A program made the position numbers and the translations under genes. The notes below the pieces were generated by a model. That model made no database searches and was not told where the DNA came from. It saw nothing but the letters and a program-made list of their open reading frames with translations. A stretch of 32,435 nucleotides of DNA from a virus, in the IMG/VR virus record IMGVR_UViG_3300011258_000485, positions 1 through 32,435 of that record; one strand, written 5' to 3'. Below are positions 97-10,007 of this stretch, one piece after another. The stretch's first letter is position 1. Every line of letters begins with the position of its first letter.

Positions 97-912
97 CTAA
101 AAAATACACTCGCAAGGTTTCTCATCCCTGTCAATCTTAGTATTAATACCTGCTTCCCTAACATCAGCCCAAAATGTCTGGAACTTGATACGCTCTGTCT
201 GTGGTATTCCTTTTCGTTTCATCTCCTCAAACAGGGGTTCTAGCCCCTCCAGTGTATTACCTTTTATTATTGTGTACCCTATTTCATCCTCTGCCCATTT
301 ACCCTTCTCATATATGTCAGGTCTAGTGCAATATACTACGTACCAATGTTGTTTCCCTGCCTTCAAGCACCCAATACAATTAGCATGTTTAAAGCTCTTG
401 TATTGCATAGGGGGTTGAATACCTAATTCCGTAGTACTTCCTACCAATTCCTCCCAATCAAAAGCTATGGGGTAGTCTGTCTTATACCCTTGCTGTCCCA
501 GTATACCGCTCCTCCGTTGTATTCTAACTGTCTCTCCTTTATCAAACCCGTAGTATATAACACAATCTTTATCAGAGAAGTTATCTTTTAAATATCTGTT
601 AAAAGGTTCTGTTTTAAGTCTACTTGTGCATAGCTCAGTCCCCGTTCCTACCTTAAATGCAGAAGCATCTACTACCACATCGAACTGGTCTGGTATAGAC
701 CCTATCTCTAGGTTCTTTATATTCGCATAAGTAATTGGAATACCTAAGTAGTTAGACACTTGTAACTTAAATCTCTTTATATCCGAATCCTCCACCCACT
801 CAGATATATCATGGTTAAGTAATATTGTATTCTCCGCTCCGAATCTCCTAGCTACAGCTATAGCCACCCTTGCTGAACTATGCCCCCCTGAATAACAAAC
901 GATATGTTTCAT
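97..912 (-). CDS. PAPS reductase-like PP-loop protein
   Basis: A 271-residue member of the adenine nucleotide alpha-hydrolase (PP-loop) fold. SGGHSS at residues 8-13 is the pyrophosphate-binding loop, with His where SGGxDS enzymes usually have Asp. CTSRLKTEPF (95-104) resembles the cysteine/lysine segment of phosphoadenosine phosphosulfate reductases. CIGC (179-182) and CEC (267-269) suggest a metal or Fe-S site, as in APS reductase and DndC-type proteins. Phages often carry such genes; the role is unsettled and could be sulfur metabolism or nucleic acid modification. It lies between the sigma-like genes and DNA polymerase with almost no spacing and has a GGAGAG ribosome site. The fold call is firm; the substrate is unknown. 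Confidence 0.75.
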   Translation of the reverse strand: MKHIVCYSGGHSSARVAIAVARRFGAENTILLNHDISEWVEDSDIKRFKLQVSNYLGIPITYANIKNLEIGSIPDQFDVVVDASAFKVGTGTELCTSRLKTEPFNRYLKDNFSDKDCVIYYGFDKGETVRIQRRSGILGQQGYKTDYPIAFDWEELVGSTTELGIQPPMQYKSFKHANCIGCLKAGKQHWYVVYCTRPDIYEKGKWAEDEIGYTIIKGNTLEGLEPLFEEMKRKGIPQTERIKFQTFWADVREAGINTKIDRDEKPCECIF

Positions 913-913
913 A

Positions 914-1387
914 CTACTCTCCAGTTAATTTCCTCAGTGTGTACAAGTGTCTTTGACTAACAGCTTGTCTACTCACACCCTCTACCTTAGCTTGCTCACT
1001 ACATGTTGTTGCACCACTAATTAAGTCCAGTGTAAGTTGGTCTGCATTAGATAGCAACTCATTTATATATATTTCATCTTCCACTGATAGCTCATAACCT
1101 CCTTGCTCCCTATCTAAGTACTCCTTGTCTCTCTCTTCAATACGTGTGGCTTCATTGAATGCTCTATGCTTACCTTCTTTAACCTTCCTAGTACCCATGA
1201 AGTTCTTGAACACGTAGGGTATTAATGTTGTTGGCTTACCTTTCTCGGGGTCATACTTAGCATACAAATGAAAGTGAATGAAGAAGTCTTGATATACATC
1301 ATCTCTATCTTGCTCAGGAATCTTCCACTTACGGATTAGATTGTGTATGAATCCTTCATGCTCTGTTAAGTCCAAGTACTCAATCAT
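914..1387 (-). CDS. ECF-type sigma factor-like protein (copy B)
   Basis: A 157-residue protein with the two-domain layout of small sigma70-family factors. Residues 10-75 look like region 2: DDVYQDF at 29-35, then a hydrophobic helix and a basic stretch around TRKVKEGKHR. Residues 105-155 look like region 4, with a helix-turn-helix centred on VEGVSRQAVSQR (135-146). It is a paralogue of the next gene upstream: both share EH..F...L, IP, DD.YQDF, TT.I...FK.F...R and EGV.RQA...R at matching positions. The ATG overlaps the upstream stop (ATGA) after a GAGG box. The likely role is to direct host RNA polymerase to phage promoters. A non-sigma DNA-binding role is possible because recognition residues cannot be judged by eye. 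Confidence 0.65.
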   Translation of the reverse strand: MIEYLDLTEHEGFIHNLIRKWKIPEQDRDDVYQDFFIHFHLYAKYDPEKGKPTTLIPYVFKNFMGTRKVKEGKHRAFNEATRIEERDKEYLDREQGGYELSVEDEIYINELLSNADQLTLDLISGATTCSEQAKVEGVSRQAVSQRHLYTLRKLTGE

Positions 1388-1845: not shown

Positions 1846-2045
1846 ACAATCTCCAATAAGTTAGCAGGGAATACATATCCTGCATCTGTATAAACACTAA
1901 GGCTGTGGTCGTATGTGCCTAAGTCCGTATTAACTACTTGCATATCTTGTAACTCTAGTACGGGTACATCTTCTAAGTATATAGATACAAGCTGTTCTGC
2001 ATTACCTGTGTAGTTAACTGTATCACCTACTGTTATTCTATTCAT
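1842..2045 (-). CDS. hypothetical protein, 67 aa
   Basis: A small acidic protein of 67 residues, not recognised. It is rich in beta-branched residues (VGDTVNYTG near the start, YDHSLSVYTDAGYVFPANLLEIV-type strand pattern at the end), suggesting a small beta fold. No cysteine pairs or membrane segment are visible. The ATG at 2045 follows GAGGT and overlaps the end of the primase-helicase gene by eight bases; its stop overlaps the sigma-like gene downstream. It is therefore translated as part of the replication/transcription operon. No function can be assigned. Confidence 0.7.
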   Translation of the reverse strand: MNRITVGDTVNYTGNAEQLVSIYLEDVPVLELQDMQVVNTDLGTYDHSLSVYTDAGYVFPANLLEIV

Positions 2046-4647
2046 CGTGTTCTACCTCTGATAGTTTGCCCTTACTGGGATTCCATATTAAATCAACTTT
2101 ACCTACTGCATTATACTCACGTTCTCGTATGACATGCAACACTCTTCTCTTATTTAAATACTCAGCATCTTCACCTTCTGTTAACATCCATGCTTGCATT
2201 GCTATAGCTACATCGCATGTTTGAACCATAGCCGTACTACCTGCGAAGTCGTCACCAACTGCTACTCTGCCTTCTTCCCACTTAGTTCCATCTCTTACCT
2301 TGTTAAAGTGACAGAAGATAAACACGGTATAGCCTAGACTCTTGGCATCCTCAGCAACTTCCCTTGTCATAGTGTGCAAGAAGTCATTCTTCTCACTAGC
2401 ACTCATACCCGATGATAAGTTAGTGATTGGGTCAATGAAGAAATACTTAATACCTCTACTTAGATATGCTTCCCGCATTAACTGTCGCACTTCTCCCCAT
2501 CTAGGGGTTTGATTCCTTTCTAGTACGAACAACTTACCAGATAGTAATGCGCTTGCTCTATCTACATCCTCTGGATTAACTTTAATCTTTGGGTCATAGA
2601 ACACCTTACCAACTGCTGCCCCTGCCATCCTACGTAGTGTACCTTCTTCACTCTCTTCTGGTTTAATAGCGAAGATAGGTTCGTTATGATGTAGCATAAG
2701 ATGTGTAGCTATCTCATTCACCAATGTACTGTTATGCACTACAGTATAATCCTCTAATAAGAATCTATTGTCCCCGTCAACCTTTATGGATGCGTACATA
2801 CCCTTCTTCATAGAACCCCGAGAGAAACCTGTTCTTGTGGGATTCCTTTTGGCTGTACCAACAAGTTGCTTACGGGGTACTCTACAAGGTAAGTTAAATG
2901 CTCCACTTATATGAACCCTGTAGTACGTACCCTCAAAACCCAAAGATTTGATAGTCCCTTTCTTCTCTTTCATCGTAGCTCTGAAACCTAAGCTACGGGA
3001 TAACATCATAATACCTTTTGCAAATAATCTCTGCTTGACAGTTACTTCATATACATTTCTATCAAGTGAACCATCAGTGTCTAGTATCCCTGCAAGAAGT
3101 AAGCGCCTATCCTCATAACTACTGTACAAATAGTTATCTGGTATCATCTTCTGTTTCAAGCATTCTCTGTTGTGCTCTACAATCCCCTTCAGAGTTACAT
3201 TTATACTACCACTCGCGTACTCGTAGTCCTTAACAGGGTGGTGTTCCTCACCTCTCAGTATGGTGGGAGCGTCATCTTTATTTAAAGTGCATCTACCATT
3301 CCCTACATGCCCATCACCTAGCCAAACACCAAACAAGTAAGGATTCCATACAGGTTTTTGATTGAGAAATCTTGGGACGCTAACATGGAACTGTTGACCC
3401 TTCTCCCAATCATAAGGTGCTATATCCTTAACTTCTCTCTCTTTGTAACCCCCTTCCGAGTAGTAGCATAATGTATGATTAGGAGTAACCCAAAAATCCA
3501 TACCTTTGTTTTGTTTTATCTCTACCAAGTCCCCTATTGCGATAAAGTTATCTTGAACAGTCACAAAGCCGTCAACACCCATCAACTTATCGCCTACCTC
3601 CACCTTCCCTGCTTGCTTTACACTTCCGTCTGCCATCCTTACAGGCGTGTAAACTTCTAAGCACTTACCTGCCTTCTCAGGCGCACCTACGTATATAGTA
3701 GTACCTAACCTAATCCCTCGTAGTAAATCAGTCAATCCTTTATACGGAAATGATAATCCAAACTCAGGTTCTTTCTTAACTATATCGAAGTCCGATGATG
3801 TGAACTCCTTAATACCACTGGATAATGGTACACCTGCATTATAACAAGAACTAACTAATTCCTTCTCCTTACCTTGCTTAACCATTTCATTGCTGTCTTT
3901 CTCTGTGTACTTAGCAATCTTAACAGCATAATCGCTAGGGAATAAAGCTCTGATATCCTTTGTGGCGCTACTACCTGCATCATCCATATCTGGCAAGAAC
4001 ACTACTTGCTTCCACTTGTCTATGATGTGTTTAAGTATGGGTTGCAGTGTCTTTATAACACTCTCATTACCTTGCTTTAATGAGATAACCGCTACTTTCT
4101 GTTTCTTCTCTCGCATCCATGCCGTGAATGTAGCTACAGCATCCTCTTCACCTTCAGTAATGTATAATGTATATCCTCCTATCTCCAGTGCTTGTAACCA
4201 TCCAAATGGTAGAGCATTGCGTACACTACCTAATGCATAAAAGTTCTTTGGATTATGTACTCTTACCTTATACCCTGTAACTTCATTGGTATCATCAAGC
4301 ATTGGGTAGTATGTCTCTGTTACAGTCCTGCCATCTTGTCTACTAACCCCATGCTTAACACCGAAGTGTCTATATGCACCTGCTTTTAATCCTCTCTCAT
4401 TGTTGTCTAATGTTCTTAATTCCTGTACCCATGATATGTCCTGTGGTTCTTTCTCGACATACGGTGTGTCACTCTCTGGAATCTCTGATAGTGCCTTCTC
4501 TGTGTAGTACTTACTGCCATGCACTTGTTCATCATGGTTAGAAGAGAAACAATAACCTGTCTTCTTATCATCTTCCACCCACATGTTAAGCCCATCACTG
4601 CTACCACATCGAGGACAGTGTATCTTGCCTTGATGACTACCTGCCAT
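2038..4647 (-). CDS. T7 gp4-like primase-helicase, interrupted by an intein
   Basis: An 869-residue precursor; without the intein (329-639) the protein is 558 residues, close to T7 gp4 (566). It makes primers and unwinds the replication fork as a ring. The zinc-binding part of the primase has C11, C14, C33 and H38. The TOPRIM part has TEGEED (164-169) and DMDD (220-223). The RecA-like helicase has Walker A GAPEKAGK-S, split by the intein, Walker B FFIDP (736-740), the FIFCHFNK segment (777-783) and REREYN (841-846). The C-terminus is acidic (SEVEHDE), as in T7 gp4, where it contacts polymerase. The start has a GGGAGA box and overlaps the stop of a 28-residue membrane peptide. Confidence 0.93.
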   Translation of the reverse strand: MAGSHQGKIHCPRCGSSDGLNMWVEDDKKTGYCFSSNHDEQVHGSKYYTEKALSEIPESDTPYVEKEPQDISWVQELRTLDNNERGLKAGAYRHFGVKHGVSRQDGRTVTETYYPMLDDTNEVTGYKVRVHNPKNFYALGSVRNALPFGWLQALEIGGYTLYITEGEEDAVATFTAWMREKKQKVAVISLKQGNESVIKTLQPILKHIIDKWKQVVFLPDMDDAGSSATKDIRALFPSDYAVKIAKYTEKDSNEMVKQGKEKELVSSCYNAGVPLSSGIKEFTSSDFDIVKKEPEFGLSFPYKGLTDLLRGIRLGTTIYVGAPEKAGKCLEVYTPVRMADGSVKQAGKVEVGDKLMGVDGFVTVQDNFIAIGDLVEIKQNKGMDFWVTPNHTLCYYSEGGYKEREVKDIAPYDWEKGQQFHVSVPRFLNQKPVWNPYLFGVWLGDGHVGNGRCTLNKDDAPTILRGEEHHPVKDYEYASGSINVTLKGIVEHNRECLKQKMIPDNYLYSSYEDRRLLLAGILDTDGSLDRNVYEVTVKQRLFAKGIMMLSRSLGFRATMKEKKGTIKSLGFEGTYYRVHISGAFNLPCRVPRKQLVGTAKRNPTRTGFSRGSMKKGMYASIKVDGDNRFLLEDYTVVHNSTLVNEIATHLMLHHNEPIFAIKPEESEEGTLRRMAGAAVGKVFYDPKIKVNPEDVDRASALLSGKLFVLERNQTPRWGEVRQLMREAYLSRGIKYFFIDPITNLSSGMSASEKNDFLHTMTREVAEDAKSLGYTVFIFCHFNKVRDGTKWEEGRVAVGDDFAGSTAMVQTCDVAIAMQAWMLTEGEDAEYLNKRRVLHVIREREYNAVGKVDLIWNPSKGKLSEVEHDE
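2731..3663 (-). mobile_element. intein with LAGLIDADG homing endonuclease in the helicase P-loop
   Basis: A 311-residue in-frame insertion from Cys329 to Asn639 of the primase-helicase precursor. Splicing signs: Cys1 at the N-terminal junction, a block B motif TPNH (388-391), the terminal VVHN, and Ser640 as the +1 residue. Precise removal restores GAPEKAGKS, a proper Walker A. Two LAGLIDADG-type motifs are present: LFGVWLGDG (438-446, Asp445) and LLAGILDTDG (517-526, Asp525). Both acidic catalytic residues are kept, so the endonuclease may still be active and able to spread the element into intein-free alleles. Helicase activity must depend on splicing because the P-loop is split. Splicing motifs are seen directly; activity is inferred. 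Confidence 0.93.
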
Positions 4648-9214: not shown

Positions 9215-9531
9215 AGACCACTTGAATAATATCACTACATATAAATGAAACGCATGCACGCGAATAGCACACCTTAATAATATAAGTCTAATAACAAATT
9301 GATATATTAAAATACATTATTAGAACTTAATAGACTTCAGAACAAAGTAATACCAACATCAGGATACATACCTATATCTCATTAGAATGCTATACAGGAC
9401 GATATAGGATACATGTACATATATCCAAGTAACATGTAATCATAATCATTATACGTACATACATAAGTGTTATATAAACATAAGGATTATATATCTATAA
9501 GTATATGAATACATGTAGCGATAGCTATTGG

Positions 9532-9551
9532 CTTATGTGCCTGTACATAAG
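9532..9551. repeat. 7-bp perfect inverted repeat (CTTATGT-6-ACATAAG)
   Basis: CTTATGT at 9532-9538 and ACATAAG at 9545-9551 around a six-base loop, just after the palindromes TACATGTA (9510-9517) and ATAGCTAT (9521-9528). Three palindromic elements within about 40 bases suggest protein binding or an origin-like structure. Confidence 0.45.
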
Positions 9552-9635
9552 ACAACTATATATACAAATCAATACCTTAGACTTGCCGAACGTATGTGAG
9601 GGCTAAGGCTCCATTACCATTCCGCCATGAAATCA

Positions 9636-9915
9636 ATAGACTTTAGTCTATGAATCCTATGTGACTACCCGTACACGGGGGGATTATACCCTACGGGTGG
9701 TATGTGCATAGCACTCCACAAATTTTTACAAAAATTTCTTCCGTACAAGCCCAATGATTACAAGGGGTAGAGCGCCCTTTGCTCGCCATAGCTAAAGCTA
9801 CACCTCGCACTTGTGCGTAATAATTATTTACAGCAGTACCTTCGCCATGTATACTATAGGTATAGCAGATAGATTAGTTATTCTAATGCATTAAGACATT
9901 AACTAGCAAGCTAGT
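9636..9915. repeat. chain of short perfect inverted repeats with 2-base centres
   Basis: Seven perfect inverted repeats with exactly two central bases occur in 280 bp: ATAGACT-TT-AGTCTAT (9636), CCCGT-AC-ACGGG (9668), AAATTTTT-AC-AAAAATTT (9720), TAGCT-AA-AGCTA (9789), CGCAC-TT-GTGCG (9806), CTATA-GG-TATAG (9854) and ACTAGC-AA-GCTAGT (9902). Others have 0-7-base centres: ACCC-TAC-GGGT (9688), GTGC-ATA-GCAC (9704), GAGC-7-GCTC (9770), AATAATTATT (9819) and ATTAG-5-CTAAT (9873). The arms have unrelated sequences, so structure, not a copied motif, is what repeats. One unit overlaps the -10 of the rightward promoter. Confidence 0.6.
9827..9855 (+). promoter_or_regulatory. rightward sigma70-type promoter
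   Basis: TTTACA (9827-9832), a 17-base spacer, then TATACT (9850-9855): five of six matches at both boxes with ideal spacing. Transcription would start near 9862 and give a leader of about 180 bases to the holin gene. The palindrome CTATA-GG-TATAG (9854-9865) covers the -10 edge and start point, suggesting an operator; AATAATTATT (9819-9828) touches the -35. This would let host RNA polymerase start the late operon. Confidence 0.6.
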
Positions 9916-10007
9916 CTGCACCAAATTCTTAATTAATTCCTTAATTCATTGATTGCGGGTGTTGTGAGCCAACTGCTCCTCACCCCAATTACTTCTTTTC
10001 ACTTATA

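Follow-up and report, generated by a model that had tools for sequence, protein, structure and literature searches.

The packaging RNA of phage phi29 is a structured RNA encoded at one end of a genome whose ends are protein-primed and lack a direct terminal repeat. Direct terminal repeats are already known from the Zobellviridae, and a conserved G+C-rich stretch at the repeat end has been noted in cobaviruses. The T7 polymerase-lysozyme complex pauses on reaching the concatemer junction and initiates maturation and packaging (PMC3276506), and a hairpin in T7 DNA containing the terminal repeat was found during infection and forms part of models of repeat duplication (PMC4281155).

Here, we analyzed the virus fragment IMGVR_UViG_3300011258_000485 of IMG/VR, whose 32435 bases are given in joined form and whose whole length is called the window below. 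Its region 9636-9915 has the leftward early genes (as far as 9001) on one side and the holin gene (10045), which is rightward, on the other. It is predicted to be the junction of the genome ends, with a direct terminal repeat, in a marine podovirus resembling the Zobellviridae. According to the ORFs of the window and the annotation of RIO-1 and VpV262, divergent early and holin/late genes flank the genome ends as in the Zobellviridae. The terminase large subunit (TerL) is also of a related, Zobellviridae type, being 46-50% identical to TerL of RIO-1, 275E43-1 and relatives; a family search found a T7-type RNase H-like domain (PF22530) in it and identified no small terminase subunit in the window. 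A blastn search against public phages returned no relative of the junction region, and no tRNA or tmRNA was found.

Some other genes of the window were annotated as well. The primase/helicase gene (2038-4647, minus strand) appears to contain an intein: residues about 324-582, which separate the primase part from the helicase part, match Hint, Hom_end and LAGLIDADG. Near it, positions 914-1387 (minus strand) encode a 157-aa protein with a match to sigma-70 region 2 (E 3.7e-5, just below the Pfam cut-off); in RIO-1, too, a putative sigma factor is encoded near that gene. An auxiliary gene (97-912, minus strand) is phosphoadenosine phosphosulfate reductase-like.

Predicted cut site and terminal repeat

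A conserved core, GTGCA^TAGCAC...AAATTT(T/C)TACAAAAA (9704-9735), forms a block extending to ACAAAAA and coincides with the annotated end of the RIO-1 terminal repeat; the window reads GTGCATAGCACTCCACAAATTTTTACAAAAATTT at 9704-9737. The 121-bp terminal repeats of RIO-1, located in the same gene interval, end with GTGCA in the orientation of the window, and the next bases are TAGCACC (TAGCACCTCTAACATTTCTGCAAG). The cut motif GTGCATAGCAC and the following A/T block match the repeat ends of phages with characterised ends: the direct terminal repeat of VpV262 stops directly before ACACACCTCGAATATTTCTAACA, and that of ICBM1 ends, give or take about three bases, at the homologous place, before ACACAAAAATATTTACTAACAGAAATT. 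In addition, the corresponding gene interval of CVT22, HP1 and ICP2 contains GTGCATAG or TGCATAG. Since the RIO-1 repeat end and the motifs of these other phages agree, the terminase is predicted to cut at GTGCA^TAGC and should do so between 9708 and 9709.

The candidate direct terminal repeat spans about 100 bp (9606-9708). Its right limit comes from RIO-1, and its left limit, uncertain and near 9606, we only infer from two signs: GCTAAGGCTCC (9602-9612) resembles the cut motif, and contig L001 starts at this place. Contig L040 begins 5 nt past the cut, and contig ends are suggestive of physical ends in L040 and L001 only. No words were common to the two ends of G001 or of G002, and the self-overlap of G008 was discarded as evidence of a physical end, the overlap lying only in a tandem repeat. 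A long-range helix of GCTA..GC (9602) with the cut motif, obtained in the first RNAalifold run, was set aside because the two partners appear to be copies of a single cut motif.

Excess of inverted repeats at the junction

The initial annotation had listed seven perfect inverted repeats with 2-base centres within 280 bp (9636-9915), and all of them were found: 9636-9651 (7-bp stem), 9668-9679 (5), 9720-9737 (8), 9789-9800 (5), 9806-9817 (5), 9854-9865 (5) and 9902-9915 (6). Its estimate of about 0.4 expected by chance agreed with the mean of 0.37 in local dinucleotide shuffles of the 280 bp. Similar counts in shuffled sequence had been named as grounds for rejecting the cluster, and none of 5000 dinucleotide shuffles contained seven repeats, the maximum being 5. 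Elsewhere in the window, 36 such repeats occur over 32 kb, which corresponds to an expectation of 0.3 per 280 bp. The top 280-bp count in 60 whole-window shuffles, with any centre size from 0 to 12 allowed, was likewise 5, and the cluster is therefore robust to the choice of place and centre size.

When 13 relatives were aligned on the cut (-210 to +210), they contained 34 repeats with 2-base centres against 6.3 (sd 2.3) in shuffles. Centres of 3 bases (24) and 4 bases (29, partly nested) were also raised, and those of 0 bases (8) and 1 base (5) were not enriched; hairpins with 3-4-base loops give such a profile, and duplex dyads do not. TAAA, CTTG and TACA were the most frequent inner tetranucleotides of these repeats, and on the plus strand CTTG occurred seven times compared with two for CAAG. 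The arms are unrelated in sequence, as had been remarked, and among the structures proposed at the outset the best fit was that of hairpins with 4-base loops, the inner pair being C-G or T-A. HP1, RIO-1 and ICP2 have the cut common to all, yet no repeats with 2-base centres near it.

The description of the repeats as a chain stood only in part: they are not due to chance, but the seven do not make up one uniform chain because they are spread over the terminal repeat, the cut-site block, the left genome end, the promoter and the mRNA leader. First, ATAGACT-TT-AGTCTAT (9636-9651) lies inside the terminal repeat and has no counterpart there in relatives. A C-run/G-run hairpin of the terminal repeat (9664-9701) contains CCCGT-AC-ACGGG (9668-9679); close relatives have a CCCC..GGGG hairpin at this site and others have G-runs, with varying loop size. 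Second, AAATTTTT-AC-AAAAATTT (9720-9737) overlaps the conserved cut-site block. Because this block is conserved by letters, the pairing is not independent evidence, and the stem is broken where the block reads AATTTCTAC. Third, CGCAC-TT-GTGCG (9806-9817) stands at the end of hairpin D, described below; L123 and L131 have GCACT-3 nt-AGTGC at this site, and the other relatives are without it. Fourth, the repeat at 9854-9865 overlaps the -10 and start of a sigma70-type promoter for the holin/late genes, TTTACA-17-TATACT (9827-9855, plus strand). The count of matches to this promoter type was not above the shuffle background, and L001 has TTGACA-18-TATACT at the matching place. Finally, ACTAGC-AA-GCTAGT (9902-9915, plus strand) lies in the holin mRNA leader, and L001 has kept its right arm and not its left.

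Other structures were seen before holin genes. The window has a leader hairpin, GGGTG...CACCC, at 9957-9985 (plus strand), with similar, letter-changed counterparts in L001 and L128. In L004, an Rfam abiF RNA (2942-2979, plus strand; 44.3 bits, above threshold) stands directly before the holin gene of that related phage.

Five of the seven listed repeats showed no clear conservation of pairing in the relatives. The objection that arms might change without compensation fails for 9789-9800, and most of the others have no paired counterpart in relatives. These remaining repeats may be lineage-specific or part of the promoter and leader, within a best explanation that, taken as a whole, we hold with about even confidence. 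A chance cluster without common function would account for the five, but it is extremely improbable in view of the shuffles that never reached seven, the family-wide excess and the covariation of hairpin D.

Hairpins flanking the predicted cut

Hairpin D (9779-9809), 71-101 bp past the cut, runs from TTGCTC through an inner stem with AA centre, the listed repeat 9789-9800, to TCGCA. It is 31 nt long and was compared in 11 phages, where both sides have changed at five of the eight pairs; 97.7% of its cells are paired versus 78% in shuffles, and none of 500 shuffles reached its covariation score. The flanks are constant across the 11 phages, the centre is AA or GA in 10 of them, and the inner stems read TAGCT, GGAGT, GGTCT, TGGCT, TGACT or TGGAT, with matching partners. 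A scan of the collection with the flank and loop letters only, without the stem letters, returned 37 stretches. All of those linked to a cut had 5-6 pairs, and those away from the cut motif had 1-2 pairs, with one exception.

Hairpin A (9528-9555, plus strand) is the best-conserved hairpin. It lies outside the range of the initial annotation and was absent from its list because of one G.T (G.U) pair and one mismatch. It has up to 13 pairs and a 2-base centre, with the loop CCUG in the window and CUUG in seven relatives. Its length is 28 nt in all eight phages compared, both sides have changed at 11 of 13 pairs, and no shuffle among 500 reached its covariation score of 0.907. Directly before it stands hairpin A0 (9516-9527, plus strand), a covarying 4-bp stem with a GATA/GACA loop, which reads TAGC-GATA-GCTA in the window and CACT-GATA-AGTG in other phages, and directly after it comes a conserved CTATATA(TA)CAAATC. 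A covariance model of A0 and A (R1), built without the window and without L128, recovered both on the plus strand, with 42.9 and 36.7 bits, respectively; the same alignment without pairing gave 14.1 bits for the window and missed L128.

Judged from these alignments, hairpins A and D are conserved by position and pairing, not by letters. Protein-binding sites in duplex DNA, for dimers of terminase or a regulator, would suit the cut-site block, which is letter-conserved across the family including 9720-9737. However, the stem letters of A and D change while pairing is kept, and there is no enrichment of the 0- and 1-base centres typical of dyads; we consider this explanation improbable, and on the same two grounds the DNA dimer sites or cruciforms suggested by the initial annotation lack support as such.

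Read on the plus strand, hairpin A has 10 G.T pairs and no A.C pair in 104 cells, indicating that this strand folds. Folding energy of the whole region was raised alike on both strands, favouring neither, and is therefore useless for the strand question. For hairpin A, the strand bias, together with G.U pairs and CUUG loops, suggests that it is RNA, part of a transcript that runs rightward into the repeat. L129, L130 and L133 each have two divergent sigma54-like sites between the early genes and the genome end; one of the two, upstream of A, is directed into the repeat, and these putative sites support rightward transcription there. The sites (TGGCAY-N5-TTGC) stand at -233 to -311 from the cut on the plus strand and at -477 to -527 on the minus strand; L130 has a second rightward copy, and divergent sigma54-like sites are unusual for phages. 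No rightward promoter was recognised upstream of hairpin A in the window. Hairpin D would be transcribed only if the transcript crosses the junction, because D lies upstream of the holin promoter.

The two hairpins flanking the cut probably help to process the genome ends. From left to right, the proposed junction would consist of the early genes, the terminal repeat of about 100 bp to 9708, the cut, the left genome end and the holin promoter, with A0 and A upstream of the repeat, the G/C hairpin within it and D about 80 bp past the cut. Hairpin A would fold as a single strand, and its likeliest carrier is a transcript that runs rightward across the concatemer junction. The hairpins may then mark or time concatemer processing, either by recruiting the terminase or through a nick and re-synthesis that duplicate the repeat, and in T7 junction transcription and hairpin intermediates act likewise. 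That A at least is a folded single strand of a rightward transcript with such a role is a reading whose chances we consider evenly balanced; the role in packaging we infer from place alone, and the transcript across the junction is putative.

Two-residue loops are known in DNA, and 2-base centres suit DNA hairpins. The main rival is accordingly single-stranded DNA: the terminase or another nuclease would nick beside the palindrome next to the repeat, the displaced strand would fold back, and synthesis would duplicate the repeat, as proposed for T7. The position of hairpin A just outside the repeat and the T7 hairpin intermediate (PMC4281155) favour this course, and the strand bias of A is also compatible with one DNA strand. 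Nevertheless, CUUG loops and G.T pairs at this frequency (10 in 104 cells) are found more typically in RNA, no nick site was identified, and we regard it as possible but rather unlikely. A cis-acting packaging RNA, in which a transcript with covarying hairpins across the junction directs where or when the terminase processes the concatemer, is a doubtful possibility too. A noncoding structured RNA with no part in packaging, such as a small RNA directed at the host, that is encoded across the junction by happenstance might explain several covarying hairpins and conserved unpaired stretches over about 300 nt and the upstream rightward promoter-like site in three phages; yet the terminase would cut through the middle of it, the placement is always at the junction and Rfam gave no match, which makes it quite unlikely. 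Our preferred reading remains hairpins, with A folded in a rightward transcript, that mark or time processing of the concatemer.

Comparison with known systems

Rfam searches at gathering and relaxed thresholds found nothing at the element, with no known structured RNA family scoring above the gathering threshold, and in the window gave only implausible weak matches (E 0.4 or above). On its minus strand, L004 has a hammerhead-like CUGAUGA, which was dropped because the window lacks it. The candidate of the window, without an Rfam match, would resemble the phi29 packaging RNA as a structured RNA at a genome end. With the T7 junction it has in common a repeat of 100-200 bp, the T7-type RNase H-like domain of TerL and a hairpin-forming sequence beside the repeat. 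In contrast to T7, no T7-type RNA polymerase was seen in the window, and the hairpins here are conserved and covarying on one strand.

The closest resemblance in gene order at the ends is to the repeats of RIO-1, VpV262 and the cobavirus ICBM1 in the Zobellviridae, which have the same order, a homologous cut motif, a short terminal repeat and a G-rich stretch before the cut, the end of the window itself being predicted. They differ in the hairpins: the hairpin A model did not match RIO-1 or VpV262 significantly, and RIO-1 showed no D-like box. Among public isolates, none carrying hairpins A and D was found. The literature searched, which lay mostly outside subscription papers such as the RIO-1 genome paper, yielded no account of the covarying hairpins. 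As far as could be checked, this is a known genome-end type with conserved folded elements that are undescribed. The cutting and duplication of terminal repeats are still unsettled, even in T7, and the family-wide cut motif and the hairpins whose pairing is kept provide defined elements testable in relatives, as well as a route to the genome ends of metagenomic phage records from sequence alone.
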